NCBI GenBank assembly: GCA_041545745.1
Contig: CP168152.1
Span: 3,346,001-3,410,000, forward strand
Source: Stenotrophomonas indicatrix
Lineage (GTDB): Bacteria > Pseudomonadota > Gammaproteobacteria > Xanthomonadales > Xanthomonadaceae
Length of the DNA stretch: 64,000 nt
Direction: 5' to 3'
Shown here: piece by piece, positions 15,611 through 44,345 of the stretch
Position numbering within the stretch: position 1 is the stretch's first letter
Layout of the letters: the number at the start of each line of letters is the position of its first letter
Made by a program: the position numbers and the translations under genes
The notes under the pieces: model-generated
Told to the model about the DNA's origin: nothing
Database searches by the model: none
What the model saw: only the letters and a program-made list of their open reading frames with translations

Positions 15611-16160
15611 GAGGGGTTCGGCCGGGCTGCGCCCGGCACCCGCAGAGGCAACAGCCGGAGCAACGGCCAAAGCCAAAGCGGCTTCCTGCGGGATGGCGGG
15701 GCGGCATGGGCTGGCAGGACACGCCGTAAACCCATCCATGGGGGCTCGATGGCGCCATCCATGGCGCCAACGGTCCTGCCAACCCATGCCGCCCCACCCC
15801 TGACAGTTTCCCGGTGTCTGGTAGATCCACGCCATGCGTGGATGAATCTCCATCGAAATCGAATATTTCGAGAATTGAACGAAGAGCATCCACGCATGGC
15901 GTGGATCTACGCGTCGACCAAGGTCGACACCTACCAGAGCCGGAAGCCGTTCCGACAGCTCGCGGACAATTGTCGAAGGCGGGGTGGGTCCGGTGGCAGG
16001 GGCGTGAGCCGCATGGATGCGGCGACCGAGCCTACAGGGACGTATTTACGGCGTCCCCTGCCACCGGGCCCACCCCGCCTACCCACGGATAACCAGCTCT
16101 TGCCGTTGACGTTGACGTTGATTCGGCAGGTGCAGGGCTGCAAGCCCTGCCGAACACCCC
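15611..16160. repeat. Composite palindromic element, copy 1
   Basis: Fills the gap between two convergent genes. In order: outer hairpin GCCGGGC-TGC-GCCCGGC (about 15620-15637), a CAACGGC-rich spacer, palindrome A (15697-15794, arms GGGGCGGCATGGG and its inverse), and the box TGACAGTTTCC (15800-15810). The centre holds two inverted GTAG REPs (15820-15843 and 15886-15909) and a GTCGACC REP (15911-15933). Then come the inverted box (about 15963-15975), palindrome B (15977-16078), a spacer, and an outer hairpin GGCAGG/CCTGCC (about 16123-16150) next to the recO stop. Same orientation as copies 2 and 3. Confidence 0.85.
15820..15933. repeat. GTAG (SMAG-type) REP inverted dimer plus third REP
   Basis: GTAGATCCACGCCATGCGTG at 15820 is inverted at 15886-15909, with a variable AT-rich stretch between. 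It is followed by an inverted GTCGACC/GGTCGAC REP ending in CTACC. The GTAG head and short palindrome match the SMAG repeat family of S. maltophilia. Confidence 0.85.
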
Positions 16161-16880
16161 TCAACGCCTGGGCGCGAGCTGCTCCAGCATCTCCCACGAT
16201 TTCAGGCCGCGTGCGCCAAGGTGATGAGCCAGCACCCGCCGCATCGGCAGCCGCAGGCTGGCCAGATCGGCTGCGTCCGGCTCGTCGTCGGCCGCCAGGG
16301 CCAACAGTGCTGAGCCAGTAGCCGCTGCACCACGCTCGCCGCCGCGCTCGCTGAGCAGGCGCTGCGGTCCTTCCTGCGGGTCCAGTTCATAACGCGCCGC
16401 CGGGTCGATCGGCTGGCCATCGCTGGCAGTCTCCAGATCGAAGCCCACGCCCAGTGCCGCCAGCAGCTCGCGCTCGAAACGGCGCAGGGTCCAGGCCAAT
16501 CCGGCACCCACGGCCAGGCGTGCACGCGCTTCGCCGTAGGCCAGGTATAACTCCGGCAACGGATCCTGGCGCGGCGCCAGGCGCAGGGTCAGTTCACTCA
16601 AATAGAACCCGGCCAGCATGGCCTGGCCGAGCAGGCGCGGCGCCACATCCAGCGCTTCAGCACCGCGCAGCTGGGCCAGTTCGCCACGTTGCAGCGCGCT
16701 GAAGCGGATCCACTGCAGGGGCTGCAGGGCCGCTCGCAGCACCTGGCCCTTGGCCGTGGAAACACCACGCGCGAGCAGGCCGATCCGGCCGTGCTCGGCG
16801 CTCAATACCTCGACCAGCAGGCTGGTCTCGCGATAGGCCCGCGCATGCAGCACGAAGCCGGTGTCGTCCTCGATCAGCAT
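16161..16880 (-). CDS. recO: DNA repair protein RecO
   Basis: 239-residue RecO with an N-terminal OB-fold ([32 protein letters not shown]) and a helical C-terminal domain. It mediates RecA loading onto SSB-coated single-stranded DNA in the RecFOR pathway. The zinc-binding cysteines seen in some RecO proteins are absent, as in many gammaproteobacteria. Last gene of the lepA-lepB-rnc-era-recO run, 18 bases after era. Confidence 0.95.
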
Positions 16881-16898
16881 CGAAGCGACCGTCGCGGC

Positions 16899-17795
16899 TT
16901 AGTCGTAGCCGAAGGCCTTCAGCGCGGCCTCGTCATCGGACCAGCCCTCACGCACGCGCACCCAGGTTTCCAGGAACACCTTGGCCCCGAACAGACGCTC
17001 CATCTGCAGGCGGGACTTGGCCCCGATCTCCTTCAGGCGGGTACCGCCCTTGCCGATCACGATCGCCTTCTGGCCTTCGCGCTCGACCCAGATCACCGCA
17101 CCGATGCGCAGCAGGTTGCCGTCCTCGGTGAAGCGCTCGATCTCCACCGTGGTGGCGTACGGCAGCTCTTCGCCCAACTGGCGCATCAGCTGTTCACGCA
17201 CCAGTTCGCCAGCCAGGAAACGCTGGCTGCGGTCGGTGATTTCGTCTTCGCCGAACATCGGCGGGGCTTCCGGCAACAGCGCCAGCACATCACGGACCAG
17301 GGCTTCCAGGCCGTTGCGCTTCTGCGCCGAAATCGGATGCACCGACGAGAAGTCACGGCCGGCGGTCACTTCCTGCAGGAACGGCAGCAGCGCCCCCTTG
17401 TCCTTCATGCGGTCGATCTTGTTGACCACCAGCACCACCGGGATACCGGCGTCGCGCAGCACGTTGAAAGCCAGGCTGTCCTCTTCGTCCCAGCGACCGG
17501 CTTCGATCACCAGCAGGCCGGCGTCGACGCCTTCCAGCGAACCGCGGGCAGCGCGGTTCATGACCCGGTTCATCGCACGCTTCTGCACCTTGTGCAGACC
17601 GGGCGTGTCGACCAGCACCAGCTGCCCTTCCGGGTAGGTGGCGATGCCCAGCAGGCGGTGACGGGTGGTCTGCGGCCGGTTGGACACGATGCTGACCTTG
17701 GCCCCGACCAAGGCATTGGTCAGGGTCGATTTGCCCACGTTCGGGCGGCCGATGACGGCCACGCTGCCGCAATGATGGGGGGTTTGTTCGCTCAC
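16899..17795 (-). CDS. era: GTPase Era
   Basis: 298-residue GTPase. G1 is [11 protein letters not shown]3 DTPGLH, G4 NKID; the C-terminal KH domain contains the GKGG loop ([13 protein letters not shown]). Era binds the 3' end of 16S rRNA and takes part in 30S maturation. It starts inside the rnc stop (ATGA overlap), the common rnc-era coupling that links rRNA processing enzymes. Confidence 0.97.
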
Positions 17796-18472
17796 TTGGA
17801 ATCCAGTTGTTCAAGGACGGCCGCAGCCGCTTGTTGTTCGGCGATCCGCCGCGAGGAGCCTTCGCCCTCGGTGCTGGCGGCGGGGTCGGCTACGTTGCAG
17901 CGTACCCGGAAGTGTTTGGCGTGGTCGTCACCGGATTCTGACACCAGTTCGTACTGTGGCAACGCCTTCTGTCGGCCCTGCAGCCATTCCTGCAGGCGGG
18001 TCTTGGGGTCCTTCTCCGGTCGCCCGGTGGCCGGCAGCGCCTCCATCGAGGCGGCAAACCAGGGCAGGACCATCGCCCGGCAGGCTTCAAAGCCGGCATC
18101 CAGGTAGATCGCCGCAACCACGGCCTCGAATGCATCGGCCAGGGTCGAGTCGCGGCGATGACCGCCGGACTTCATTTCGCCAGGCCCCATGGTCAGCCGG
18201 TCACCCAGCTGAAGAGTGCGCGCGATCACCGCCAGCGCACCCTCGCGCACCAGCTCGGCGCGGGCGCGGGTCATCGCGCCTTCGTCCGCCTTGGGCCAGC
18301 GCAGGTACAACGCCTCGGCGACCATCATGTTGACGATGCTGTCGCCGAGGAACTCCAGCCGCTCGTTATGCGGCGCGCCGGCACTGCGATGGGTCAGCGC
18401 CTGCTTGAGCAGGCCTGGATCGCGGAAGGTGTGACCGATCAGGTCTTCACGTTGGAAAGATTTATTCGGCAC
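17792..18472 (-). CDS. rnc: Ribonuclease III
   Basis: 226-residue double-strand-specific endoribonuclease. The catalytic signature [17 protein letters not shown] is at about residues 38-54 and a second acidic site at [13 protein letters not shown]. The C-terminal double-stranded RNA-binding domain spans about 155-226. It processes rRNA precursors and structured mRNAs, and would be expected to cut the long hairpins of the repeats in this window if transcribed. Its start overlaps the upstream DUF4845 gene by 11 bases. Confidence 0.97.
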
Positions 18473-18845
18473 CGCTACGGGTCAGGTCCTGGGAAGAATC
18501 GAATTTGCCAACCACATCCAGGTTGCCGACCAGTTGGCGGCGCACTTCGTAGTTGACCTTGAGGGTCCAGCCATTGTCGCGACGGTCGAACTTGACGTTG
18601 GCCGGCTTCACGTTGTCCGAGTAGTTGATGTACAGCCGCTTGAAGAACAGGTCCTGGATGTTGGCCGGCGCCATGCTGCCGATGCCGGGTTCCTTGGCCA
18701 GGCTCTTCATCGCCGAGCGCACCGCGTAATACTCCTGGTACATCGGGAACAGCTTCATGCCGATGTAGAGGAAGAAGCCAACCACGATCAGGACCGTCAG
18801 GAACGAGGTCAGGGTCATGCCGCGCTGCGTGTTCATCGTCTTCAT
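18462..18845 (-). CDS. DUF4845 membrane protein
   Basis: 127 residues with one N-terminal membrane helix (about 13-32) and a small periplasmic domain. It is commonly encoded between lepB and rnc in gamma- and betaproteobacteria; function unknown. The N-terminus [19 protein letters not shown] looks like a type IV pilin leader, but the Glu expected at position 5 of the mature protein is replaced by Ser, so processing by prepilin peptidase is doubtful. The ATG at 18845 has GGGAGA six bases upstream. Confidence 0.88.
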
Positions 18846-18879
18846 TGCGTTCTCCCCAGATACGCGAGTGGATGTGAAG

Positions 18880-19674
18880 TCAGTTGATGCTCGAGCCGAT
18901 CCGCGACGGTTCGAAACCATCCTTGCAGAACCAGCCCTGGCAGTTCAGCCAGATCAGGAATGCCTTGCCGCGCAGGTTCTCTTCCGGCAGCAGGCCCCAG
19001 AAACGGCCGTCGTCGCTGTTGTCGCGATTGTCGCCCATCACCAGGTACTTGCCGGCCGGTACGGTCCACTGGCCCTGGCCACGCGGATAGTCGGTCTCCA
19101 GCACGGTATGGGTACGGCCCGGCAGGTGCTCGACCAGCAGGTTGGCGCCCTCGCCCTGGCCCTTGTGGCCGGCGTAGATGCCCTTGCTGTCGTACTTCAG
19201 CGGCTCGCCGTTGAGGATCACACCGTCGCCTTCGAACACGATGGTGTCGCCCGGCACGCCGATCACGCGCTTGATGAAGTTCTCGCCCTTGGCCGGATCG
19301 TTGTCGCCATGGCCGGGGAAGTGGAACACCACCACGTCGCCGCGGGCCGGATCACCGACCGGCACGAAGCGGGTATTGGTGATCGGCAGGCGCAGGCCAT
19401 AGGAGAACTTGTTGACCAGGATGAAATCGCCGATCAGCAGGTTCGGCATCATCGAGCTGGACGGGATCTTGTACGGCTCGGCGATGAAGCTGCGCACGAT
19501 CAGCACGATCGCCAGCACCGGGAAGAACGCACGCGAGTAGTCCACCAGCACCGGCTCGGTGTCGAGCAGGCCGGCGCGCTGGGCGCGACGCTTGGCCAGG
19601 TACAGCTTGTCGGCCAGCAGGATCAGGCCGGAGGCCAGGGTCAGCACGACCAGGAGGATCTCAAACAGTTTCAT
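18880..19674 (-). CDS. lepB: Signal peptidase I
   Basis: 264-residue membrane serine protease that cleaves signal peptides of exported proteins. Two N-terminal membrane helices (about 3-22 and 49-64), catalytic Ser74 in PSSSMMPNLLIGD, and general-base Lys135 in KRVIGVPGD are visible. It follows lepA by 54 bases, the standard lepA-lepB order. Confidence 0.96.
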   Translation of the reverse strand: MKLFEILLVVLTLASGLILLADKLYLAKRRAQRAGLLDTEPVLVDYSRAFFPVLAIVLIVRSFIAEPYKIPSSSMMPNLLIGDFILVNKFSYGLRLPITNTRFVPVGDPARGDVVVFHFPGHGDNDPAKGENFIKRVIGVPGDTIVFEGDGVILNGEPLKYDSKGIYAGHKGQGEGANLLVEHLPGRTHTVLETDYPRGQGQWTVPAGKYLVMGDNRDNSDDGRFWGLLPEENLRGKAFLIWLNCQGWFCKDGFEPSRIGSSIN

Positions 19675-19728
19675 TCAGGGTCCTTTGCAACGTCACCGGA
19701 CGATCGGCCCGAAGGCCGGTTTCGGGGC

Positions 19729-21537
19729 TTATTTGTTGTCCATCTGCAGCACGGCCAGGAAGGCTTCCTGCGGAATTTCCACGCGGCCGACCTGCTTCAT
19801 GCGCTTCTTGCCTTCCTTCTGCTTTTCCAGAAGCTTCTTCTTGCGCGAAACGTCGCCACCATAGCACTTGGCCAGAACGTTCTTGCGCATGGCCTTGACC
19901 GTGGTGCGCGAGATGATCTGCGAGCCGACGGCCGCCTGGATGGCAACGTCGAACTGCTGGCGCGGGATCAGGTCCTTCATCTTCTCGCACAGCTCGCGAC
20001 CACGACGATCGGCATGGCTGCGGTGCACGATCAGCGACAGCGCATCGACCTTGTCGCCATTGATCAGCACGTCCACGCGCACGAACGGACCGGCATCGAA
20101 GCGCACGAAGTGATAGTCCAGCGAGGCATAGCCACGGCTGACCGACTTCAGCTTGTCGAAGAAGTCCAGCACCACTTCGGCCATCGGCAGCTCGTAGCTG
20201 ATCTGCACCTGGCTGCCCAGGTAGTTGATGCCGAGCTGGCTGCCACGCTTTTCTTCGCACAGCTTGATGATGTTGCCGATGTACTCCTCGGGGGTGAGCA
20301 CGTTGGCGCGGATGATCGGCTCGCGGATCTCCTGCACATGGTTCACCGGCGGCAGCTTGGCCGGGTTGTCCATGTTGATGATCGTGCCATCGGTCTTCAG
20401 CACTTCATACACCACCGTCGGCGCGGTGCTGATCAGGTCCAGGTTGTATTCGCGTTCCAGGCGTTCCTGCACGATTTCCATGTGCAGCATGCCGAGGAAG
20501 CCGCAGCGGAAACCGAAGCCCATCGCTTCGGAGCTTTCCGGCTCGAAGCGCAGCGCGGCATCGTTCAGGCGCAGCTTGTCCAGCGCCTCGCGCAGGTCCG
20601 GGTAATCCTCGGCATCGACCGGGAACAGGCCGGCGAACACGCGCGGCTGCATTTCCTGGAAGCCCGGCAGCGGCTTCGGCGCGGGATCCGCAGCGAGGGT
20701 GAGGGTGTCACCGACGGGCGCGCCGTGCACGTCCTTGATGCTGGCGGTGACCCAGCCCACTTCGCCCGCACGCAGTGCCGGCAGCACCTTGCGCTTGGGG
20801 GTGAACACACCGACGTTGTCGACCTGGTGGTTGCGGCCGGTGGACATCACCTGCAGCTTGTCGCCGGCCTTGATCTCGCCCTGCATCACGCGCACCAGCG
20901 AGACCACGCCCAGGTAGTTGTCGAACCACGAGTCGATGATCAGCGCCTGCAGCTTGTCGGTATCACGCGGCACCGGCGGCGGAATGCGATGCACGATCGC
21001 TTCCAGCACGTCGACCACGTTCAGGCCGGTCTTGGCACTGACCGGGACTGCGTCGCTGGCATCGATGCCGATCACGGCCTCGATCTCGGCCTTGGCACGC
21101 TCGATATCGGCGGTGGGCAGGTCGATCTTGTTGATCACCGGCACCACTTCCAGCCCCTGCTCCACGGCGGTGTAGCAGTTGGCCACCGACTGCGCCTCCA
21201 CACCCTGCGCCGCATCGACCACCAGCAGCGCGCCCTCGCAGGCGGCCAGCGAGCGGCTGACTTCATAGGAGAAGTCGACGTGGCCGGGGGTGTCGATGAA
21301 GTTCAGATGGTAGGTCTGGCCGTCCTTCGCCACGTACGGCAGCGACACCGACTGCGCCTTGATGGTGATGCCACGCTCGCGCTCGATCGGGTTGGAGTCG
21401 AGCACCTGCGCTTCCATCTCGCGCGCCTGGAGGCCGCCACAGAGCTGGATGATGCGGTCGGCCAGCGTGGACTTGCCGTGGTCGACGTGGGCGATGATGG
21501 AGAAGTTGCGGATGTTCCGCATCGAATCAGAGGACAT
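19729..21537 (-). CDS. lepA: Elongation factor 4 (LepA)
   Basis: 602-residue translational GTPase. G1 is [10 protein letters not shown]3 DTPGHVDF, G4 NKIDLP; EF-G-like domains follow, then the LepA-specific C-terminal domain ([32 protein letters not shown]). It acts on stalled or initiating ribosomes; the exact role is debated. Start at 21537; homologues often begin at the internal MRNIRNFS five residues later. First gene of the lepA-lepB-DUF4845-rnc-era-recO series. Confidence 0.97.
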
Positions 21538-21638
21538 AGAGAGGTGGCGGCGGCGCGCGGCGTCGTCAGGGTAACGGTCGATTATCGCACGCCCGGAGGG
21601 TAGCCGCGTGGTTGGCCTGTCCGGGCAAGCCCCGGAAT

Positions 21639-21668
21639 GGCCGAAGCCCCGCCAGGGCGGGGCTTTGG
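21639..21668 (-). terminator. Hairpin after mucD
   Basis: AAGCCCCGCC/GGCGGGGCTT stem downstream of the mucD stop on the minus strand, followed only by a TT, so a weak intrinsic terminator. It separates the sigma-E group from lepA. Confidence 0.6.
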
Positions 21669-21707
21669 GGGTACCACAAGGACCGCCGTGAAGGCGGACA
21701 TGCGTTG

Positions 21708-23246
21708 TTACGGTCCGGCCTTGACCGCCACAAAGGCGCTGTTGCCGCTGCCGGTACGGACCAGCAGCATGACCACGTCGCCCTTTTTGTACCCGGACAG
21801 CGCACGGTTCAGGGTTTCGACGCTGCCGACCGGGGTGCTGGCCACCTGCAGGATCACCATGCCGCCCGACAGGCCGGCATCACGGGCGCCCTCGCCCTTC
21901 ACTGCGGTGATGCGGACGCCTTCGCCCGCCTCCAGGCCCAGCTGCTTGCGCTGCGGCGCGGTCAGGTCGGCAACCTCCAACCCAAGCAGGGCATTGGCCC
22001 CGGTCTGCGGCGCTGCCGTGTCATTGCCTGCGGAGGGGCTGCGGGCATTGCCCTGCGCATCCTCTGCCAAAGCGGTCAGGGTCGCGCTCAGGTCACGCGG
22101 CTTGCCGTCGCGGATGACGCCCAGAGTGACCCGGCTGCCCGGTGCCATCGCACCGATCAGCGGCGGCAGATCGGACCAGCTGTTGACCGGCGCACCGTTG
22201 ACCGTGCGGATCACGTCACCGATCTTGACCCCGGCCTTGGCCGCGGCACTGTCCGGCACGATCTGGTTGACCAGCGCACCACGGCTATCGGGCAGGCCCA
22301 TCGCCTGTGCCTTCAGGCCGTCGATTTCCTGGACCACCGCGCCGAGCTGGCCACGGGTCACCTTGCCGCTCTTCTTGATCTGCTCGACCGCGCTCATCGC
22401 CAGATCGATCGGGATCGCAAAGCTGATGCCCATGTAGCCGCCCGAGGCCGAGAAGATCTGCGAGTTGATGCCGACCACTTCGCCACGGGTATTCAGCAGC
22501 GGGCCGCCGGAGTTGCCTTGATTGATCGCCACGTCTGTCTGGATGAAAGGCACATAGCGCTGGTCCGGCCCACCGGTGTTGCGGCCGAGGGCACTGACCA
22601 CGCCGGCGGTGACGGAGTGGTCGAGGCCGAACGGCGAACCGATCGCGACAACCCACTGACCGGGCTTCAGGCTGTTGGAATCACCCACGCGCACGGTCGG
22701 CAGGTTCTTGCCGTCGATCTTCAGCAGGGCGACGTCGTACTGCTGGTCGCTGCCGACCACCTTGGCGGTGAACTCGCGACGATCACCGAGCTTGACCTTC
22801 ACTTCACTGGCGTCGGCGACCACGTGGTAATTGGTCAGCACGTAGCCGTCAGGCGAAATGATGAAGCCCGAGCCCATGCCGCGGCCCTTGATGCTGGGTC
22901 CGCCGTCCTGGCCGCCGGGGCCCTGCCCCGGCATCGGGAAATCCGGGCCGAAGAAGCGGCGGAAGAATTCAGGCATCTCGTCATCACCCGGGCCCATGCC
23001 GCCGCGTGCCTGGCGGTTGCTGCGGACGATGGTGGTGTCGACGTTGACCACACCGGGGCCGACCTGCTCGACCAGATTGGTGAAGTCAGGCAGGCCGCTG
23101 ACCAGCGGCTGCGCCGGTGCGCGCGGCGCCGCAGCAGCGGCTGCGGCCTGCGGCTGGGCGGCAGGCGCCGCCGGTTGGGCACAGGCCACCAGCGGCAGGG
23201 TCAGGGCGAACAGGCCAATGGCATGTGTGCGCAGTCGGGGAGTCAT
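21708..23246 (-). CDS. mucD: DegP/MucD periplasmic serine protease
   Basis: 512-residue HtrA-family protease with a trypsin-like domain and two PDZ domains. The triad histidine is in TNYHVVAD, the aspartate in YDVALLKID, and the serine in NQGNSGGPL. The N-terminus has an export signal ending in a lipobox (L-V-A-C), which predicts a lipid-anchored form. An Ala/Pro-rich linker follows. It degrades misfolded envelope proteins and in this operon would act downstream of sigma-E. GGAGG lies ten bases before the ATG at 23246. A terminator hairpin stands between rseA and this gene. Confidence 0.95.
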
Positions 23247-27114: not shown

Positions 27115-27298
27115 TCGGCCGGGCCTGCGGCCCGGCACCCGCAGAGGCAACGTCAAGTTCCACAGCAGAAGCCAGAGCCAAAGCGGCTCTGGCTTTTCTG
27201 TTTGTTGGGCGGGGCGGTGTCGGGTTGCGGGGACGCCGTAAACCCATCCTTGAAGTGACCCCCGGAAGTTGGACACCCCGTCCAACTCCGAGGATTTC

Positions 27299-27820
27299 AT
27301 GAATAGGTATGACGCGCGCTTCAAACTTCAGGTCGCCAAGGAGGCCTGCAAGACCTCCACATCCGTCAAGGCGGTGGCCCGTCGCCACGGTCTGGAGTTT
27401 TCGACGGTCCGGCGTTGGGCAGCGACCTACCGGCTGCATGGTTGGCGTGGGTTTCACCGCAAAGTCCGGTCCTACGATCTCCAGTTCAAGCTGGATGTCC
27501 TTGAAAAGATGCGTCAAGAAGGGATGTCTGGGCGCGAGGCCACGACCTATTTCCAGATCGGAGATGCCGGCGCGGTGGGGCAATGGCAACGGCTGTATGC
27601 TGACGGTGGCGCCCAAGCGTTGGCGCCGCCACCATTACCGCCCCCAAAGCCGATGAAGAAGACCCGCTCGTCCAAGCCAGCCGAGGACATGAGCCGCGAT
27701 GAGCTCCTTAAGGAAGTAGCCTACCTGCGTGCGGAGACGGCCTACTTAAAAAAGCTCGATGCCTTGATCCAGGAAGAGCAGGCGGCACAGCGCACAAAGC
27801 GCAAGCCGTCCAAGGATTGA
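27299..27820 (+). CDS. IS3-family transposase OrfA (helix-turn-helix)
   Basis: 173-residue DNA-binding subunit with two helix-turn-helix segments (VKAVARRHGLEFSTVRRWAATY and a second around GREATTYFQIGDAGAVGQW). A C-terminal leucine-zipper-like coiled coil (LLKEVAYLRAETAYLKKLDAL) follows. The two-HTH layout is typical of the IS150 group. An in-frame start ten codons upstream would run into the terminal repeat, so 27299 is used. The slippery AAAAAAG lies at 27748-27754. Confidence 0.9.
   Translation: MNRYDARFKLQVAKEACKTSTSVKAVARRHGLEFSTVRRWAATYRLHGWRGFHRKVRSYDLQFKLDVLEKMRQEGMSGREATTYFQIGDAGAVGQWQRLYADGGAQALAPPPLPPPKPMKKTRSSKPAEDMSRDELLKEVAYLRAETAYLKKLDALIQEEQAAQRTKRKPSKD
27748..27754 (+). promoter_or_regulatory. 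A6G programmed -1 frameshift site
   Basis: AAAAAAG in OrfA, read in frame as TTA-AAA-AAG. After a -1 slip the reading frame is open from here straight into OrfB, with no stop codon, so an OrfAB fusion transposase can be made as in other IS3 elements. Confidence 0.8.
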
Positions 27821-28650
27821 GGCAGGCCCACTCCCTGCCGCTTTTGCTCGAGGCGGCCGAGTTGTCGCGCAGCACGTTCTATTACCAGGTTCATGCCTTG
27901 GCCCATCCTGATGAGGGCGAGGTGGAACTGCGTGAGCGCATCCGCGCGATTTACGACGAAAGCCAAGGGCGCTATGGCTACCGCCGCATAACACTGGAAC
28001 TGGCCAATCGGGGCGAGGCGATCAACCACAAGCGGGTGCAGCGCCTGATGGCCGAGCTGGGCCTGCAGTCGCGCGTACGCATCAAGCGCTACCGCGCGTT
28101 CAAGGGCACAGCCAATGTCGTGGTTCCCAACGAACTGGACCGTCAGTTTGAAGCCGAAATTCCCAACCAGAAGTGGGTGACCGATGTAACCGAGTTCAAA
28201 GTGCAGGGCATGAAGCTCTATCTTTCGCCGATCATGGACCTCTACAACGGCGAAATCGTGGCCTACCAGATGAAGCGTCGGCCGGTGTTCGATCTGGTGG
28301 GTCAGATGCTGGATCAGGCGATCAAAAAGCTCTCACCCGAAGATCGACCGATGATCCACTCTGACCAGGGATGGCACTACCAGCACGAGAACTACCGGCA
28401 CAAGCTCGAGAGGCGCGGCCTGAAACAAAGCATGTCCCGACGTGGCAACTGCCTGGACAACGCGGCCATGGAGAGTTTCTTCGGGACACTGAAGTCGGAA
28501 TTTTTCTACCTGAACAGCTTTGACAGTATCGAAAGCCTGGAAGCGGGCCTGGTTGAGTACATCAGGTACTACAACGAAGACCGCATCAAGCTGAAGTTGA
28601 AGGGCATGAGCCCGGTAAAGTACCGGGAACAGGCCAAGCTGGCCGCCTGA
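27817..28650 (+). CDS. IS3-family transposase OrfB (DDE integrase)
   Basis: 277 residues counted from a TTG at 27817; normally translated as part of the OrfAB fusion by frameshifting. It has the HTH_21-like region GRYGYRRITLEL and the DDE residues in WVTDVTEF, MIHSDQGWHYQ and CLDNAAMESFFGTLKSE. It ends with the typical YNEDRIKLKLKGMSPVKYR segment. No internal stops, so the element appears active. Confidence 0.93.
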   Translation: MRQAHSLPLLLEAAELSRSTFYYQVHALAHPDEGEVELRERIRAIYDESQGRYGYRRITLELANRGEAINHKRVQRLMAELGLQSRVRIKRYRAFKGTANVVVPNELDRQFEAEIPNQKWVTDVTEFKVQGMKLYLSPIMDLYNGEIVAYQMKRRPVFDLVGQMLDQAIKKLSPEDRPMIHSDQGWHYQHENYRHKLERRGLKQSMSRRGNCLDNAAMESFFGTLKSEFFYLNSFDSIESLEAGLVEYIRYYNEDRIKLKLKGMSPVKYREQAKLAA

Positions 28651-29172
28651 CCGCCCAACTGTCCAGCTTTTGGGGGTCACTTCACCTTGGGGGCTTGGCC
28701 GCGGCATCCATGCCGCGGACACCCCGCAACCCGACACCGCCCCACCCCTGACAGTTTCCCGGTGACGGTCAGTGAACTGCGATTGCTGGTAGGTGTCGAC
28801 CTTGGTCGACACGCTTGATCCACGCCATGCGTGGATGCGAGCGAAGCGACCAGCGTTTGATTTTGATTTTCTTTTTTCTTCTCCGTGGCTGGACGGCACA
28901 CGGAAACTGTCAGAGGCCGGGCGGGTGGGTTGCGCAGGGGCGTGAGCCGCATGGATGCGGCGCCCGAGCTTACAGGGACGTACTTGCAGCGCCCCCTGCG
29001 CAACCCACCCGCCCGGCCAAGCGCGGCTTCTGCTTTTGCCTTCAGCGACCAACCACCAGCCACGAGAGGCTGCGCCGTTGGCTGGAACAACCTGTTACCC
29101 GAACGGGGAATGTCACCCTCACGACAGCATGCGATGCTGACCACCTTGATCCCTGCCAGCGAGAACGCCCGC

Positions 29173-35054: not shown

Positions 35055-35590
35055 GGCGCCGGGCTTGCAGCCCGGCGCCCGCAGAAGCGACGGCAACGGC
35101 AACTGCAACTGCAACGGCCGAAGCGTCGGCTCTGGGTTTCTGTGGGATTGGCGGGGCGGTGTGGGCTTGCAGGACACGCCGTAAACCCTTCCATGGGGGC
35201 TCGATGGCGCCATCCATGGCGCCAACGGTCCTGCAAGCCCACACCGCCCCACCTTTGACAGATTTCCGCTGACGGTGCGAAACATCTGGGGTCGGCTCCG
35301 TTTTCCTTGGAAAACGGAGCCGACCCCTTCTTTGTTCATGGATACCGATGGAATTGATTCACGCATGGCGTGGATCCAGCAGATCGCGGAAAACTGTCGG
35401 AGGCGGGGTGGGGCCGGTTGCGGGGGCGTGAGCGCCATGGATGGCGCGACCGAGGCTACATGGACGTACTTGCGCCGTCCCCCGCAACCGGACCCACCCC
35501 GCCATCACACGGAATGCCCGCTGTTGCTGTTGCTGTATGAGGTTGCCGGCCAGCGGCCGATACTACCGCGGGTGCCGGGCGCCGCCCGGC
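35055..35590. repeat. Composite palindromic element, copy 3
   Basis: Best-preserved copy, between convergent genes. Outer hairpin GGCGCCGGGC/GCCCGGCGCC (35055-35079), a CAACGGC spacer, palindrome A (35153-35250), and the box TTGACAGATTTCC. The centre holds a near-perfect 40-base hairpin, GGGGTCGGCTCCGTTTTCC and its inverse (35288-35327), and a GTAG-like REP (35357-35377). Then come the inverted box GGAAAACTGTC (35388-35398), palindrome B (35402-35503), a spacer, and the outer hairpin GCCGGGC/GCCCGGC (35574-35590) eight bases from the DUF819 stop. Confidence 0.87.
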
Positions 35591-37476: not shown

Positions 37477-37482
37477 GACAGG

Positions 37483-38763
37483 TCAGCCTGGCCGCGATGT
37501 ACCAAAATCGAGGGTGGCCCGCGTACCGCGCGGCTTGCAGGGCTGCAGCTGCAGGGTCCAGCCCAGGTGCTCGCACAGCCGCGCGATCAGTTCCAGGCCG
37601 ATGCCGCCGCGATCGCCACGCTCACCGCGTGCCATCCGCGCGTGGATCGCGGCGATTTCCTCCGGGCTCATGCCGTGGCCGGGATCCTGCAGGGTCAATA
37701 CCGCTGCCGAGGTCAGGCGCAGCTCGATATGACCGCGGCCGCTGTTCTCGATCGCATTGCGCAGCAGGTTGCCGATCGCTGCCTGCACCACGGCCAGAGG
37801 TGCGACGATGTCCACCGGCGCCGCCTGGATACCGATGCTCAGGTCCTTATCGCCCAGCAGGTGGCGATGGTCATCGACGATCTCCGGCAGCAGCTGGTCC
37901 AGGGCGATGCGCTCGGCACGGGTAGCCAGACGCGCGGGATCACGCGCCAACACCAGCAACAACTCGATCAGCTGTTCGACACCCTGCGCGGTACGCAGTA
38001 CGCGCTGCACCTGCTGGCGTGCGCGCTCAGGCAGGCCCGGCTGTTCCAGGGCCAGCTCGGCGGCACCGGTCATCACCGCGATCGGCGTGCGCAGTTCATG
38101 GCTTGCGGTGCTGATGAACACCCGCTCGCGCTCGACGAACTGCTCATTGCGGTCAAGGTAATCGTTCAGCGCATCGGCAATGGTATGCAGCTCGGAACTG
38201 CCGCGCGGATCGACGTCGATGCGCTGGCCCTGCACGCCTGGCCGCAGTGCACCGATGTGCTGGGCCAGCAGGCTCAGCGGGCGCACCATGCGCTCCATGC
38301 CGAACGAGGCCATCAACACGGTGACGAAGATCATGATGATGCCGGCGAGCATCACCCAGCGTGTGGCGAACTGTTCCAGGTCGTGGAAATCGGAGATGTC
38401 CAGGGCCAGCGCAACCCGTCCCATCGAACCGGTATCGCGCACCATCACCGCCGTCTCGCGCTCGCCGATCATCACCCCGTCATGCAACCCCGGATGCAGG
38501 GTGCGCAGGCTGGCGGGCATGTTGGCTTCATTGAAGCGGAACAGGCTGAGCGTATCCGAGTCCTGCCAGCGATAGTGCGGCTCGTGCTCGGTGTGATCGA
38601 CAATGCTGTCCAGTTCCGAATTGAGCAGCGCACGCCACGCGGCGTGCTCGGCGTGTTCGTGCACGTAGTTGCCCACGCTGAACACCGCCAGCGAAATCAG
38701 CGCCAGGTAGCCCAACAGCCACCACACCACCCGCCGGTACAGCGGCCCGGGTTTACGCGCCAT
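37483..38763 (-). CDS. Sensor histidine kinase
   Basis: 426-residue membrane kinase. Two transmembrane helices (about 11-30 and 160-180) enclose a periplasmic sensor domain of about 130 residues, then HAMP, an H-box (ISTASHELRTPIAVMTG), an N-box (NLLRNAIENSG), G1 DPGHGM, and a glycine-rich GGIGLELI. The signal is unknown. It overlaps the end of its response regulator gene (ten bases). Placed next to a lipid A modification operon, it is analogous to PmrB/ColS-like sensors. ATG at 38763 or two codons earlier. Confidence 0.93.
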   Translation of the reverse strand: MARKPGPLYRRVVWWLLGYLALISLAVFSVGNYVHEHAEHAAWRALLNSELDSIVDHTEHEPHYRWQDSDTLSLFRFNEANMPASLRTLHPGLHDGVMIGERETAVMVRDTGSMGRVALALDISDFHDLEQFATRWVMLAGIIMIFVTVLMASFGMERMVRPLSLLAQHIGALRPGVQGQRIDVDPRGSSELHTIADALNDYLDRNEQFVERERVFISTASHELRTPIAVMTGAAELALEQPGLPERARQQVQRVLRTAQGVEQLIELLLVLARDPARLATRAERIALDQLLPEIVDDHRHLLGDKDLSIGIQAAPVDIVAPLAVVQAAIGNLLRNAIENSGRGHIELRLTSAAVLTLQDPGHGMSPEEIAAIHARMARGERGDRGGIGLELIARLCEHLGWTLQLQPCKPRGTRATLDFGTSRPG

Positions 38764-39463
38764 CGTCATCGTTCCGGGTGTCGGCATCTGCAGTGGACGC
38801 CAGCCGGTAGCCGACCCGCGGCAGGGTGTGGATCAGCTTGTCGGCAAACGGACCGTCCACGCTGCGCCGCAGCTCGTACACATGCGAGCGCAGCAGGTCG
38901 CCGTCCGGCGGTTCATCACCCCACAGGGCGAATTCCAGCTGCTGCCGGGTCACCGCACCCGGGCTGGCCCGCATCAGCACTTCCAGCAGCTTGCGGCAGG
39001 CCGGGTACAGGTGCAGCACTTGGCCAGCACGCTGCGCCTCCAGGGTCGCCAGGTCCAGCACCAGGTCGCCCACCTGCAGGCGCTTGCGCGGATTGCGGCC
39101 CTGCGCGCGCAGCAGCAGCGCCTCCAGGCGCACTTCCAGTTCCGGCAATGCGAACGGTTTGGTCAGGTAGTCATCCGCTCCGGCACGGAAGCCAGCGATC
39201 TTGTCCGGCAGCTCGTCGCGCGCGGTCAGCATGATCACCGGCACTTCCGACGCGTGCTCGGAGCGCAGCCGACGCAGCACCTCGGGGCCTTCCATGCGCG
39301 GCAGCATCCAGTCCAGGATCACCGCGTCGTACGGGTGGCTGCCGGCCAGGTGCAGGCCGGTGATGCCATCCGGGGCAACGTCCAGCACATGCCCGCGTGA
39401 CTCGAAGTAGTCGAACAGGTTGGCCACCAGCTGACGGTTGTCCTCGATCACCAACAGGCGCAT
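38753..39463 (-). CDS. OmpR/PhoB-type response regulator
   Basis: 236 residues. Receiver domain with E7-D8, phosphoacceptor D51 (ILDWMLP), Thr in MLTARD and Lys in YLTKPF; C-terminal winged-helix DNA-binding domain (VTRQQLEFALWGDEPPDGDLLRSHVYELRRSVD). First gene of the two-component pair, divergent from the glycosyltransferase operon with 133 bases between starts. No PmrA-like direct repeat was seen in that gap, so the target sequence is not known. Confidence 0.93.
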   Translation of the reverse strand: MRLLVIEDNRQLVANLFDYFESRGHVLDVAPDGITGLHLAGSHPYDAVILDWMLPRMEGPEVLRRLRSEHASEVPVIMLTARDELPDKIAGFRAGADDYLTKPFALPELEVRLEALLLRAQGRNPRKRLQVGDLVLDLATLEAQRAGQVLHLYPACRKLLEVLMRASPGAVTRQQLEFALWGDEPPDGDLLRSHVYELRRSVDGPFADKLIHTLPRVGYRLASTADADTRNDDDGA

Positions 39464-39596
39464 GCACGACACATCCACGGGAAGTGCCACCATGGTAGCG
39501 CCGCAGATGTCGGAATGCGGTCGCCGTGGCAGCGGCTCTGACGGCTTTCCCACGTGCCCCTCATCAGAATGGCCGTTTTGCTGCCGGAGCCCCCCC

Positions 39597-41300
39597 GTGC
39601 CCGTTGCCCTGCCCCGCCGCTGGCACCTTCCCCTGCTGTGGCTGCTGATCGTGATGGCGCTGGCTGCCGGTCTTGGCATGCGCCAGCCGCAGCCACCGGA
39701 CGAGCCACGGTTCGTACTGGCCGCGCGGGCCATGGTGGAGAGCGGCGAGTGGCTGCTGCCGCACCGGGGCAGCGAGCTGTACGCCGAAAAGCCGCCGGTG
39801 TTCATGTGGCTGCAGGCCGCTGCCCATCAGGTGGTCGGCAGCTGGCAGTGGTCGTTCCTGCTGCCGTCGCTGCTGGCCGCCCTGCTCAGCCTGTGGCTGG
39901 TTTCGGACCTGGCGCGCCGGCTGTGGTCGCCACGCCATTCGCTGTACGCGCTTGGCGCACTGTTCTGCACCCTGCAGTTCGGCCTGATGGCCAAGCGCGC
40001 GCAGATCGACATGGTGCTGGTGGGCATGACCACGCTGGCCCTGTGGGGCCTGCTGCGCCATCTCTGCGAGCGCCGCAACCTGCCGGCGCTGTGGCTGGCC
40101 GGCTTCGCCGCTGGCGTCGGCACGGTGACCAAGGGTGTGGGCTTCCTGCCGCTGCTGATGGTGCTGCCCTGGTTCGGCTGGTGGCTGTACCAACGCCGTC
40201 GCGGCCAGGTGGTGGACGGCCCCCACCCCGCCAGCCTCCTGTGGCTGATTCCGGCGTTCCTGCTCGGCACGGCCGTATGGCTGGCGCCGCTGGGCTGGGC
40301 GCTGCTGCATGAACCCAGTGCATCGCTGCAGTCGTACGCACACGAACTGCTGTTCAAGCAGACCGGCACCCGCTACGCCAACGCCTGGCACCATCGCCAA
40401 CCGGTCTGGTACTACCTGCAGGTGATCGCCACCCTGTGGCTGCCCGGCGCCCTGTTGCTGCCGCTGATGGTCAAGCCATGGTGGCGCCGCCTGCGTCGCG
40501 GTGACCAGCGCCAATGGCTGCTGCTGGGCTGGGCCGCGCTGGTCCTGCTGTTCTTCACTGCCAGTCCTGGCAAGCGTGAGGTGTATGTACTGCCGATGTT
40601 GCCGGCGATGGCACTGGCAGTTGCACCGTTGCTGCCCGGCCTGCTGCGTCGCCAGTGCGTGCGCCGCTACCTGTTCGGCTACAGCCTGCTGCTGATGCTG
40701 GCCACCGGCGCGCTTGGTGTGATGATGCTGACCGACAACCCCTGGGCACAGGCGCAACTGGCACGGCGGGCGATGCCCGACACGTTGCTGCCCGTATTCG
40801 GCGATGGCCTGCTGACCTTCGCCATCGCCGTGGCGACGCTGGCGGTGTGGTTGCGGGTACGACGCGCGGCCACGCTCGTGCTGCTCACCCACGGCCTGCT
40901 GTGGATGCTGTACGGACTGGTGCTGATACCTGCGCTGGACCCCTATGCCTCGGCGTCGGCGGTGATGCGCCGGGTGGGCATGCGGATCGGCCCCGATGCG
41001 GAACTTGCGCTGGTGGCCTGGCGCGAACAGAACCTGCTGCAGGCCGACCGGCCGGTGCGCGAGTTCGGCTTCAAGCGACCGTGGGCGGAGCAGTGGCATG
41101 ACGCTGGCCCATGGTTGGCCGAGGTCCCGGACAAGCGCTGGTTGCTGGTGCTGGACAAGGCGATGAGCCCCTGTGTCGATCCGACCCAGGTCATCGAGAT
41201 CGGTGTTGCAAACCGCAATCGTTGGCAATTGCTTCCGGGTACTGCGTGGGACCCGGCATGCCACGCCGAACGCGCCGGCGCCAACGACGATGAAGACTGA
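39597..41300 (+). CDS. ArnT-like membrane glycosyltransferase (GT83/PMT family)
   Basis: 567-residue protein with about twelve membrane helices. The first periplasmic loop has the acidic DEPRFVLAARAM motif of ArnT/PMT enzymes, followed by GSELYAEKPPVFMWLQAA. Family members transfer sugars (aminoarabinose, mannose) from undecaprenyl phosphate to lipid A or proteins. GTG at 39597 is chosen because CGGAG lies seven bases upstream. The donor sugar cannot be told, and no arn biosynthesis genes are near. First gene of an operon with PAP2 phosphatase and EptA. Confidence 0.9.
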   Translation: MPVALPRRWHLPLLWLLIVMALAAGLGMRQPQPPDEPRFVLAARAMVESGEWLLPHRGSELYAEKPPVFMWLQAAAHQVVGSWQWSFLLPSLLAALLSLWLVSDLARRLWSPRHSLYALGALFCTLQFGLMAKRAQIDMVLVGMTTLALWGLLRHLCERRNLPALWLAGFAAGVGTVTKGVGFLPLLMVLPWFGWWLYQRRRGQVVDGPHPASLLWLIPAFLLGTAVWLAPLGWALLHEPSASLQSYAHELLFKQTGTRYANAWHHRQPVWYYLQVIATLWLPGALLLPLMVKPWWRRLRRGDQRQWLLLGWAALVLLFFTASPGKREVYVLPMLPAMALAVAPLLPGLLRRQCVRRYLFGYSLLLMLATGALGVMMLTDNPWAQAQLARRAMPDTLLPVFGDGLLTFAIAVATLAVWLRVRRAATLVLLTHGLLWMLYGLVLIPALDPYASASAVMRRVGMRIGPDAELALVAWREQNLLQADRPVREFGFKRPWAEQWHDAGPWLAEVPDKRWLLVLDKAMSPCVDPTQVIEIGVANRNRWQLLPGTAWDPACHAERAGANDDED

Positions 41301-41412
41301 ACGACGATTTGCGCCGCGCACGTATTAACCCGGCGCAAACGCACGTACGACCCTTCTCCGACATGCCAGTGACGAGCATGGCCGCGGATTCCCGTAACGG
41401 CCCCTTCCCTGC

Positions 41413-42165
41413 ATGCCCGCTCGTCCTCTTGCCCCGGCAGCCTCCTTCGCGCCATCGCTATTGGCGTCGCGTTTTGCCGTTACCCATCTTTGGCTGCCCT
41501 CTGTCATCGGCGTTGCGATGTTCACCCTGCTGATGGGCTTCGGTGGCGACCAGTGGCTGGCCGACCAACTGTTCCGGCTGGAAGGCGGCCACTGGGCACT
41601 GCAGGATGCGTGGCTGACACGTTCGGTGGTGCACAAGGCCGGCAAGTGGCTGAGCACCACTGCGGCCCTGGTGGCGATGCTGCTGTGCTTCCACCACTGG
41701 CGCCGTGGCCGCGATCGCACGCTGCGTTGGGCGCTGCTGTATGTGGTGATGGCTGTGGCACTCGGCACCGGGCTGATCTCGCTGCTGAAGTCGCTGGTAC
41801 CGATGGACTGTCCGTGGGATCTGCTGCGCTATGGCGGACACGAACCGTTCGTCGGCCTTTTCAGCAGCCGCCCGACCAGCATGGCCGCCCGCGCCTGTTT
41901 CCCCGCCGGCCATGCAAGCGCGGGATATGCATGGCTGTGCCTGTACTTCTTCGCACTGCTGTGGCGCCCCGCCTGGCGTTGGGCCGGACTGTGGATCGGC
42001 CTCGGCAGTGGCCTGGTGTTCGGTATCGGCCAGCAGCTGCGCGGTGCCCATTTCCTCTCGCATGACGTTGCCACCGCGTTGATATGTTGGCTGCTGTCGC
42101 TGGGCCTGTACCTGATGGTTCGTCGCCAGCTGGACCGCTCGACCCGCCAGGAGGCGATGGCATGA
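41413..42165 (+). CDS. PAP2-family membrane phosphatase
   Basis: 250 residues with about six membrane helices. The phosphatase motifs are KSLVPMDCPWDL (variant of the first), FPAGHASAGYAW (second) and RGAHFLSHD (third, with the catalytic histidine and aspartate). Such enzymes dephosphorylate lipid A, undecaprenyl pyrophosphate or phosphatidic acid. Between a lipid-A-type glycosyltransferase and EptA, an LpxE/LpxT-like role is plausible. It overlaps eptA by four bases (ATGA). Confidence 0.9.
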   Translation: MPARPLAPAASFAPSLLASRFAVTHLWLPSVIGVAMFTLLMGFGGDQWLADQLFRLEGGHWALQDAWLTRSVVHKAGKWLSTTAALVAMLLCFHHWRRGRDRTLRWALLYVVMAVALGTGLISLLKSLVPMDCPWDLLRYGGHEPFVGLFSSRPTSMAARACFPAGHASAGYAWLCLYFFALLWRPAWRWAGLWIGLGSGLVFGIGQQLRGAHFLSHDVATALICWLLSLGLYLMVRRQLDRSTRQEAMA

Positions 42166-43811
42166 ACGCATCGGTGCAACGTTCCTTGCGGTTGCCGACA
42201 CTGGCCAGCATCCGCGCATGGCGGCCGCAGCTGTCCACCGAATCACTGATCGTGCTGACCAGCCTGTTCTTCGCTGTGGCCGGCAATGGACTGTTCTGGC
42301 ACAGCGCCATGGCCAGCCATCCGGGCAGCCTGCGCTATGCGCTTTCGCTGCTGTTGCTGCTGCTGGGTGCACACGGCGTGCTGCTGGGCATCCTGGTGTG
42401 GCGCTGGAATGCCAAGGTGGTGATCAGCGTACTGCTGCTGGTCACCGCGTTTGCCGCGCACTACATGAGCCGTTACCACATCTATCTGGATGCGGACATG
42501 CTGCGCAATGTGCTGGCGACCGACCCGAAGGAAAGCCGCGAACTGTTGACGATGTCGCTGCTGTGGCCGGTACTGCTGCTGGCCGCGCTGCCGATGGTGG
42601 TGCTGTGGCGCGTTGAACTGCGCCGCCGCAGCTGGGGCCGCAGCCTGCTGTGGCGCATCGGCTTCCTGCTGGTCGCTGCGGCCACCGCACTCGGTGGCGC
42701 GCTGGTGTCCTTCCAGGATGTGTCGGCCCTGATGCGCAACCAGCGCGAGGTGCGCTACCTGGCAACGCCCGCCAATGTGCTGCTGGGGCTGCCGCGTGCG
42801 CTACGCGGCGACAACCCGGTACAACGCGCGCCGAAGCTGCCGATCGGCACCGATGCCAAGGCGACCCCGCGCGCGCCGACCAGCAAGCCACGCCTGCTGG
42901 TGATCGTGATGGGCGAAACGGTGCGTGCGCAGAACTGGGGCCTGAATGGTGGCCGCAATACCACGCCGGAGCTGGCCCAGGCGGCGGTGGTCAATTTCCC
43001 GGACATGCACTCCTGCGGCACCAGTACCGAGGTGTCGCTGCCGTGCCTGTTCTCGCCGTGGGGACGCCACGAGTACGACGAAAAGAAGATCCGTGCGCAC
43101 CAATCACTGCTGCATGTACTGAACCGCGCAGGCATCGCGCCGCTGTGGCGCGACAACCAGTCCGGCTGTAAAGGCGTATGCGAGGGCCTGGACTTCCAGT
43201 CACTGTCGGACGCGACCACGCCGGGGCTGTGTGCCGATGGCCGTTGCATGGACGAGATCCTGCTGCAGGACCTGGCGACCCAGGTGCGTGCGCGCCCGGG
43301 TGACCGGGTGGTAGTGATGCACCAGCTGGGCAACCATGGCCCGGCCTATTTCGAGCGCTACCCACCTGCCTTCCGCCGCTTCACCCCGACCTGCGATACC
43401 CGCGACATCGGCCGCTGCACGCGCGAAGAGATCACCAACAGCTACGACAACGCCGTGCTGTACACCGACCACTTCCTGAGCAAGACAATCGGCACGCTGC
43501 AGGGTCTGCAGGACTACGACACGGCGATGATCTACCTGTCCGACCACGGTGAGTCGCTGGGCGAAAAGGGCCTGTACCTGCACGGCGTGCCATACGCGAT
43601 CGCACCGGCCGAGCAGACCCGGGTACCGATGACGATGTGGTTCTCACCGGGCTTTGCCAGCAGCCGTGGGCTGGATCTGCAGTGCGTGCGCAAGCGCTCG
43701 GCCAGCTACACCGACCACGACAACCTGTTCCCCTCGGTGCTTGGGCTGATGCAGGTGAAGACGTCGCTGTACGAGCGTGATCGCGACCTGTTCGCCAACT
43801 GCGAGAGTTGA
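42162..43811 (+). CDS. eptA: Phosphoethanolamine-lipid A transferase EptA
   Basis: 549-residue inner-membrane enzyme with five N-terminal helices and a periplasmic sulfatase-fold domain. Zinc ligands and catalytic residues are in MGETVRAQNWG (Glu252), SCGTSTEVSLPC (nucleophile Thr among 287/289) and YLSDHGESLG. It adds phosphoethanolamine to lipid A, lowering affinity for polymyxins; MCR enzymes share this family. An alternative acceptor such as LPS core is possible. Third gene of the operon; followed by composite repeat 4. Confidence 0.94.
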   Translation: MNASVQRSLRLPTLASIRAWRPQLSTESLIVLTSLFFAVAGNGLFWHSAMASHPGSLRYALSLLLLLLGAHGVLLGILVWRWNAKVVISVLLLVTAFAAHYMSRYHIYLDADMLRNVLATDPKESRELLTMSLLWPVLLLAALPMVVLWRVELRRRSWGRSLLWRIGFLLVAAATALGGALVSFQDVSALMRNQREVRYLATPANVLLGLPRALRGDNPVQRAPKLPIGTDAKATPRAPTSKPRLLVIVMGETVRAQNWGLNGGRNTTPELAQAAVVNFPDMHSCGTSTEVSLPCLFSPWGRHEYDEKKIRAHQSLLHVLNRAGIAPLWRDNQSGCKGVCEGLDFQSLSDATTPGLCADGRCMDEILLQDLATQVRARPGDRVVVMHQLGNHGPAYFERYPPAFRRFTPTCDTRDIGRCTREEITNSYDNAVLYTDHFLSKTIGTLQGLQDYDTAMIYLSDHGESLGEKGLYLHGVPYAIAPAEQTRVPMTMWFSPGFASSRGLDLQCVRKRSASYTDHDNLFPSVLGLMQVKTSLYERDRDLFANCES

Positions 43812-43820
43812 GGGTTTGTC

Positions 43821-44345
43821 GGCAGGGCTGCGCCCTGCACCCGCAGAGGCAACGGCAACAGCAACGGCCGAAGCAACAGCAGAAGCGGGTTTTCTGAGGG
43901 GGGCGGGGCGGGTCCGGTTGCGGGGGACGCTGCAAGTACGTCCATGTAAGCTCGGTCGCCGCATCCATGCGGCTCACGCCCCCGCAACCGGACCCACCCC
44001 GCCTTCGACAGTTGGCCGCGATCTGTCAGGCCATCTCTCGGGGTCGGATCCGTTTTCCTCCGGAAAACGGATCCGACCCCATTTTGATTTTCGATACCTG
44101 ACAGATTTCATCCACGCATGGCGTGGATCTACCAGATCGCGGAAAACTGTCAGAGGTGGGGCGGTGTGGGCTTGCAGGACCGTTGGCGCCATGGATGGCG
44201 CCATCGAGCCCCCATGGATGGGTTTACGGCGTGTCCTGCAAGCCCACACCGCCCCGCCAAACCAAAGATGGCCGGCTCTTGCTGTTGCTCCGGCTTTTGA
44301 CGTTGCTTGAGGGCCTCTGCGGGCGCCGGGCGCCGCCCGGCCGAC
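43821..44345. repeat. Composite palindromic element, copy 4 (inverted)
   Basis: Same parts as copy 3 in reverse-complement order. Outer hairpin GCAGGGC-TGC-GCCCTGC, a CAACGGC spacer, palindrome B (43902-44003), and the box GACAGTTGGCC. The centre holds the 40-base hairpin GGGGTCGGATCCGTTTTCC and inverse (44040-44079) and a GTAG-type REP (44110-44132). The inverted box GGAAAACTGTC (44141-44151), palindrome A (44158-44254), a spacer, and the hairpin GGGCGCCGGGCGCCGCCCGG (about 44321-44341) follow. No gene is seen in 43812-44414. Confidence 0.86.

Follow-up and report, generated by a model that had tools for sequence, protein, structure and literature searches.

The described systems closest to the element reported here include two RNA families and the RNAs that sequester CsrA/RsmA. 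A 2010 listing presents TwoAYGGAY as a probable RNA (PMC2864571), and binding to CsrA was suggested for it as early as 2014 (PMC4333381). Ysr224 (Yersinia small RNA [sRNA] 224) is reported to respond to temperature in Y. pseudotuberculosis and to be among the most abundant sRNA annotations (PMC9029176). The consensus bound by CsrA in systematic evolution of ligands by exponential enrichment (SELEX) is RUACARGGAUGU, with the GGA in a hairpin loop (PMC4347634). In Xanthomonas, an RsmB-type homologue was not found by others (PMC3937308, PMC7694677); an RsmA-sequestering RNA, RsmU, comes from an mRNA 3′ untranslated region, and in vitro RsmU continued to bind RsmA after its four GGA motifs had been altered, the complex then being smaller (PMC7694677). 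The present analysis concerns a palindromic unit of ~104 bp that recurs in four composites within 64,000 nucleotides of Stenotrophomonas indicatrix (contig CP168152.1, positions 3,346,001 to 3,410,000; this whole stretch is the window). Xanthomonas belongs to the same order. One strand of the unit carries two loops of the CsrA/RsmA type, and it is this strand that is kept foldable.

Loops and strand polarity of the palindromic unit

Alignment of 45 half-units from the S. indicatrix genome in one orientation (alignment A1; 5 of 50 pattern hits were excluded, four as false and one as a copy split by an insertion sequence, IS) gave a Y-shaped consensus, in which a basal stem of ~26 bp bears two hairpins. 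On one strand, termed the GGA strand to distinguish it from the complementary UCC strand, both hairpins end in hexaloops reading A-N-GGA-N. This was the case for hairpin 1 in 144/149 and hairpin 2 in 147/149 units of this genome, and for 59/61 and at least 55/61 units from other genera; units outside 95–155 nt were excluded from these counts (9/158 own and 2/63 other), the loop finder gave preference to GGA in assigning loop positions, and a pattern had been used to choose the units of A1. The hairpin stems covary, the A and the GGA are fixed, and the N is free, with all four bases represented in hairpin 1 of the S. indicatrix units. Of the 144 units with two motifs found, 128 have a spacing of 23 nt between motif starts. 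A double GGA site at such spacing is of the kind gripped by the CsrA/RsmA dimer. At least 9 of the 12 positions of the SELEX consensus were matched in 102/158 own and 49/62 other-genus units, compared with 10/158 shuffled own units and 2/158 on the opposite strand, and some other-genus units contain UACAGGGAUGU or UACAUGGAUGU. Judged by its sequence, the A-N-GGA loop is a CsrA/RsmA motif; the genome has one CsrA gene. Neither these loops nor the polarity described next had been noticed in an earlier note on this DNA.

Extra segments of ~77 nt occur in the loop of hairpin 2 (L166, L121, L392, L394) or of hairpin 1 (L127, L175, L151, L168, L153) at some loci. The hairpin-2 segment has hairpins of its own with AGGA loops. 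A search with one segment found four genome places, and because all four lie inside hairpin 2 of a unit, the segment looks like an internal expansion and not an independent element.

If a palindrome were relevant as double-stranded DNA only, single A·C and G·T mismatches in its stem would be equally frequent. Read in the UCC orientation, isolated stem mismatches in 153 own units (5/158 with fewer than 19/24 pairs were left out) comprised 93 A·C and 7 G·T, or 46:7 in distinct contexts. The corresponding numbers were 37 and 3 (32:3 distinct) in 51 other-genus units, selected from 63 rows for a length above 130 nt and 19 or more pairs. An A·C in the UCC orientation corresponds to a G·U on the GGA strand, so nearly every isolated mismatch leaves the GGA strand able to pair, which marks it as the one kept foldable. 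With "+" denoting units whose UCC strand lies on the plus strand and "-" those whose GGA strand does, the bias was alike in "+" units (27:3) and "-" units (27:4), and alike in each half of the chromosome. Transitions creating G·U on the GGA strand were in excess for both G to A (33 vs 3) and T to C (13 vs 3). The covariance model used to collect units, R1, tolerates G·U in the UCC orientation, so hit selection should oppose the observed bias. GTAG-tagged SMAG hairpins of the same loci, serving as a control, showed 2 vs 3 mismatches among 72, a comparison of five mismatches only. Compensatory changes, on both sides of a pair, were seen in 22/36 pairs, amounting to 243 cells vs 73 in shuffles; over all cells, 97.3% were paired, compared with 81.0% after shuffling and 40–49% after sliding. 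As a method, the mismatch-polarity test needs genome sequence alone to tell the foldable strand of a palindromic repeat family.

Composites of the window and copies across the genome

The earlier note had described four composites in the window with the same order of parts, and direct reading together with arm pairing bore out their positions and that order, listed below. It had also described the two palindromes of each composite as differing in sequence; alignment revealed not two kinds of palindrome but one unit, inverted, with arms of different classes. In copy 2, no right GC hairpin is apparent.

15622..15636, unstranded: copy 1 left GC hairpin, read directly
15695..15798, +: copy 1 left half-unit, 26-bp arms and 52-nt core, 144.3 bits to model R1
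15802..15811, +: copy 1 GACAGTTTCC box, read directly
15821..15910, unstranded: copy 1 centre with SMAG-type hairpins in inverted arrangement (arms of 24 nt, complementarity 100%)
15977..16080, -: copy 1 right half-unit, GGA strand on plus, 158.9 bits
16133..16149, unstranded: copy 1 right GC hairpin, read directly
27119..27135, unstranded: copy 2 left GC hairpin, read directly
27207..27250, +: opening part of the copy 2 left half-unit, comprising the 5′ arm (27207–27232) and the start of the core
27251..28684, +: IS inside the core of the copy 2 left half-unit, two open reading frames (ORFs), rve integrase core
28685..28747, +: remaining part of the copy 2 left half-unit, including the 3′ arm (28722–28747), 41.5 bits
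28750..28759, +: copy 2 GACAGTTTCC box, read directly
28902..28911, -: copy 2 inverted box, read directly
28915..29018, -: copy 2 right half-unit, GGA strand on plus, 122 bits
35054..35080, unstranded: copy 3 left GC hairpin, read directly
35150..35253, +: copy 3 left half-unit, 141.7 bits
35257..35267, +: copy 3 box, read directly
35288..35327, unstranded: copy 3 centre hairpin GGGGTCGGCTCC..., resembling hairpins beside the L030 transposase gene
35388..35398, -: copy 3 inverted box, read directly
35402..35503, -: copy 3 right half-unit, GGA strand on plus, 161.2 bits
35574..35590, unstranded: copy 3 right GC hairpin, read directly
43823..43837, unstranded: copy 4 left GC hairpin, read directly
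43902..44003, +: copy 4 left half-unit, arm class T1, 151.8 bits
44007..44017, +: copy 4 box, read directly
44040..44080, unstranded: copy 4 centre hairpin GGGGTCGGATCC..., then a T-rich tail
44141..44151, -: copy 4 inverted box, read directly
44155..44258, -: copy 4 right half-unit, arm class T3, 149.3 bits
44325..44341, unstranded: copy 4 right GC hairpin, read directly

In all four copies, the IS-split left half of copy 2 excepted, arms of 25–26 nt flank ~52 nt and pair at 92–100%; copy 4 has the two arm classes of copy 3 in swapped order. Two units gave folding z-scores of -6.6 to -8.8 on both strands (0/200 shuffles each). The name SMAG for the copy 1 centre follows PMC3733652. The statement that no copy carries a coding region fails for copy 2, where the IS holds two transposase ORFs (27269–27820 and 27817–28650) with HTH_Tnp_1 and rve domains (Pfam). 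By our own reading it is bordered by a 3-bp duplication, CCT, at 27248–27250 and 28685–28687, and it is missing at the matching site in G564, G567, G571, G578, G582, and G040. Across the 158 units of the genome, the parts around the palindromes are more loosely kept than the palindromes themselves: a GACAR[TA]T box accompanies 113, at least two AACRGC-like words lie upstream of 98, and CCCGCRGW lies upstream of 38. Among 59 centres, 34 have SMAG-like hairpins and 16 have GGGGTC hairpins.

By Pfam, the genes flanking copy 1 encode a response regulator and RecO; those flanking copy 2, an enoyl-CoA hydratase/3-hydroxyacyl-CoA dehydrogenase and a pirin; those flanking copy 3, CstA (left) and a DUF819 protein (right); and those flanking copy 4, an EptA-type phosphoethanolamine transferase and an M2 peptidase. 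An apparent small ORF, identified by eye, lies between CstA and copy 3. Elsewhere in the window (8222–8455) is a second family with the same plan that is not the A-N-GGA unit: facing long palindromes pairing at 25 and 23 of 26 bp, with different arms and shared loops (AATGTCCCCCGGC...GCCTCCTCCTTTACTT and the inverse).

Model R1, with neighbouring units fetched, identified at least 158 units in 97 clusters of the S. indicatrix genome; the best 150 candidates were scored, two further units were met beyond the R1 list, and these copy numbers are minima. The clusters comprise 59 of type "+-", one "++-", 19 "-", and 18 "+", with no "-+". According to the earlier note, finding the two palindromes mostly alone would have made the composite a chance clustering; they are linked as pairs or triples, forming elements of about half a kilobase, in 60/97 clusters, every one of which starts with "+" and ends with "-". 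Its placement of the copies just downstream of a gene extends to the genome, with at least one flanking gene ending towards 88/97 clusters (35 convergent, 53 tandem, and 9 divergent contexts, with genes called by our own codon-usage gene finder and not by curated annotation). The median distance to a gene 3′ end was 73 nt (123 sides), compared with 139 nt to a 5′ end (71 sides). Copy-free regions at the origin and terminus were considered and rejected, as copies are present in both; none of the best 150 units lies within 2.136–2.586 Mb.

The two halves of one composite have unlike arms. Against an expectation from shuffled partners, arms matching at 21/24 or better were found in 0/55 own composites vs 5.6 expected (P 0.001), and at 20/24 or better in 2 vs 7.8 expected (P 0.006). 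In other species, all 15 composites for which both sides were read likewise have differing halves, by eye. If the halves were equal, they could pair together or recombine, and might be removed by selection or by instability.

Turnover at orthologous sites and spread among genomes

Comparison of syntenic sites for empty versions, as the earlier note had proposed, showed sites filled in one species and empty in another. No unit was present at the site of copies 1 and 2 in G583 and G580 (nor, for copy 1, in G565), of copy 3 in G569, G565, and G580, or of copy 4 in G583 and G565; R1 confirmed the lack of a match at these sites. In G571 and G564, the copy 3 site has a box and centre without palindromes. 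Where other members of the genus have an orthologous composite, its frame is the same but its palindromes are not. Seven half-unit positions show interspecies differences in both arms and cores, with arms switching class, and 41/41 tabulated units pair at 21–25 of 25. This table left out truncated or degenerate sequences (L188, L189, L195, L377, and the right halves of L384 and L190), the single unit L187, and the IS-split left half of copy 2 of the window itself; difference counts are inflated for G040 c1A, G572 c1B, and G570 c2B, which are out of register. In the left half of copy 2, G567 and G571 show 5 differences per arm, all 5 matched, compared with 1 in the next 23 bases, and in its right half the core has switched within an unchanged outer stem. 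The middle triplets of T3 arms are varied yet matched. The arms probably change together because palindromes are exchanged as whole cassettes, with gene conversion the probable agent.

The window composites show no clean terminal inverted repeats (TIRs) with target duplication. In genus g276 (L107/L231), a related unit was seen by eye inside ~22-bp inverted ends with a TTAG duplication. The same site (L232, L233, L234, L235) is empty in two species; a third has a different TA-flanked miniature inverted-repeat transposable element (MITE) with a unit, and a fourth has the same MITE without it. This one locus, with the short palindromic MITE unit-less in one species and holding the unit in its centre in another, is suggestive of the core inserting into pre-existing hairpins.

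Matches were found in 59/200 genomes of the order at E≤1e-3 (10/13 within the genus, including S. indicatrix), in 66/369 genomes of the class at E≤1e-5, and in 30/398 genomes drawn from the phylum at E≤1e-6, all 30 in the same class. Searches across 40 genomes scored 8–15 candidates each, and absences there are weak. A scan of named genomes for the exact pattern yielded at least 120 stretches. Among the 80 matches listed, the titles that name a group are, we take it, gammaproteobacterial, and a few say only Proteobacteria. A contig titled as a Klebsiella pneumoniae metagenome-assembled genome (L274) has three exact core matches and is possibly misbinned. Phage and plasmid collections gave no match to the unit.

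Explanations and known systems

The earlier note favoured a non-autonomous element or a 3′-end structure larger than ordinary REPs. The linked pairs, gene 3′ ends, and filled and empty sites fit that view in part; it has to be revised in that the two palindromes are one inverted unit, probably kin of TwoAYGGAY and Ysr224. The reading we put foremost, on which our judgement is evenly balanced, is a CsrA/RsmA-binding RNA repeat with cassette turnover. That the tolerated mutations leave one strand foldable hints that the copies serve as an RNA decoy across the genome and are not junk. The GGA strand would be transcribed and fold into the ~26-bp stem with two A-N-GGA hairpins ~23 nt apart, and the resulting RNA would act as a decoy that binds and titrates CsrA/RsmA. 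With its two units facing, a composite would supply one decoy to a transcript arriving from either direction. As a non-autonomous repeat, the family would have reached about a hundred gene 3′ ends, with gene conversion swapping palindromes between sites as whole cassettes, so that the arms change jointly and stay paired. A bolder version, which we consider rather unlikely, is that the RsmA-titrating RNA of this lineage is a self-spreading repeat family and no single gene, its roughly one hundred 3′-end sites forming a distributed, dosage-like sponge. We are similarly doubtful of its details, in which facing orientation would put a decoy in any transcript, cassette exchange would keep the pool foldable, and half stems would be kept different so that each folds on itself.

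Several results weigh against an RNA decoy. Minimum-free-energy predictions have an unpaired GGA in hairpin 1 for 41/128 own and 28/52 other-genus units and in hairpin 2 for 106/128 and 44/52, and opening both GGA motifs has a predicted median cost of 2.1 kcal/mol. Polarity is equal whether the gene transcript carries the UCC (16:3) or the GGA strand (15:2); being indifferent to the transcribed strand, it implies that local read-through transcription is not the selecting force. We think that cassette exchange with a common pool blurs the local-transcription signal, and mobility as single-stranded DNA (ssDNA) would equally explain polarity that ignores local transcription. Single units in tandem-gene contexts show no bias, the GGA strand being in the transcript in 12/21. 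The G-to-A excess could partly reflect cytosine deamination on the GGA strand, which does not account for the T-to-C excess. A sigma-70-like promoter was not found in the two composites scanned, and the search at E≤1e-3 gave no match in 3/13 genomes of the genus (G013, G151, G165). The repeat is thus dispensable, and these three genomes could serve as naturally repeat-free counterparts in comparisons of RsmA regulation.

Among the alternatives, an ssDNA mobile element, whose folded GGA strand would be recognized by a putative strand-specific nuclease or transposase as REPs are by TnpA-REP, with CsrA-like loops being coincidental protein contacts, strikes us as improbable. The polarity belongs to the unit and is indifferent to gene direction; G·T in ssDNA hairpins should be tolerated like G·U in RNA; sites are filled or empty between species; and the g276 unit lies within short terminal inverted repeats with a duplication. 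Such an element leaves the A-N-GGA fit with its free N unexplained, and the SMAG REPs of the same genome lack polarity (on five mismatches). Around 34 Y1 loci of 31 genomes (four from S. indicatrix plus, for each of 30 genomes, its best locus, 30/123 matches), no convincing unit match was found, the single hit scoring 18 bits, and 7/51 genomes chosen for unit matches have no PF01797 match at 1e-5. An association with Y1/RAYT transposases was rejected for the loci examined.

Position at gene ends, with 35/97 clusters between convergent genes, would suit a structural 3′-end element whose palindromes stabilize or terminate transcripts from both sides and whose GGA loops have no partner, as would the short, ordinary terminator-like hairpins seen by eye at several element-less sites. 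We nevertheless think this quite unlikely: a terminator needs no conserved A-N-GGA loops, 5-nt bulge, or polarity, and the two composites scanned have one T-tailed stem each, central and at about chance level. Template switching is known in general to correct quasi-palindromes, and a functionless, neutral repeat kept palindromic in this way would hold its arms matched during sequence drift, as the T3 middle triplets are. There is no evident reason why correction should spare A·C over G·T in a manner fixed to the unit, on both strands and in both halves, or why A-N-GGA loops are fixed across genera, and we judge this explanation very unlikely.

The unit shares with REP/BIME/REPIN repeats with RAYT, with SMAG of S. 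maltophilia, and with TIRYT-TIR repeats the arrangement of facing intergenic palindromes downstream of genes (PMC3733652). It differs from REPs and REPINs in being ~104 bp long and free of a GTAG/CGTC tag, GTAG hairpins occurring only in the centre. The tyrosine-transposase TIR repeats of S. maltophilia, as far as the accessible text of PMC3733652 describes them, seem to be other repeats than the unit, because the transposase genes found here are flanked by other hairpins and not by the unit; the unit is probably neither of the two S. maltophilia TIR families of that paper. The Y1-transposase gene at L030 is flanked by GGGGTCRGA...TCYGACCCC hairpins, of the type in the centres of copies 3 and 4, and we think that the self-complementary S. 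maltophilia TIR family is this GGGGTC hairpin.

Among RNA families, an Rfam search of the window at the gathering threshold returned only a glycine riboswitch (49548–49650, 62.5 bits). At E≤0.5, the GGA (minus) strand of the copy 3 left half matched TwoAYGGAY (RF01731) at 36.6 bits; no window unit reached the gathering score of 43, and 15 other S. indicatrix loci gave no match at E≤1. A unit from another family of the class (L105) scored 44.0 bits, over that threshold. The UCC (plus) strand of the same half-unit matched Ysr224 (RF02770) at 41.5 bits (E 1e-6; gathering 70), and the 15 loci gave 14 matches at E<0.01 on that strand, every one below gathering. The unit is thus not new to databases. 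It shares with TwoAYGGAY a basal stem with two hairpins and AYGGAY loops on the same strand, and adds inverted pairing, unlike half stems, polarity, and cassette turnover, which the accessible accounts of that family do not describe. With Ysr224 it shares a similar, closely aligned core in the UCC orientation; Ysr224 is annotated on the strand opposite the GGA loops, with no CsrA link in the accessible text. The unit is probably related to both families and probably works like them, which joins long palindromic repeats of Gammaproteobacteria with two orphan RNA families; the open-access literature searched, as far as its text was accessible, held no earlier connection of this kind. Like CsrB, RsmB, RsmX/Y/Z, and the Xanthomonas RsmU, the unit has several GGA hairpin loops of the sort meant to sequester RsmA. 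Those are single dedicated RNAs, whereas the unit occupies about a hundred dispersed sites, shows no promoter in the two composites scanned, and is predicted to bind RsmA. If its RNA binds RsmA, it would suggest a route of RsmA titration in relatives of Xanthomonas and provide a case of a mobile repeat acting as a sponge of a global regulator.

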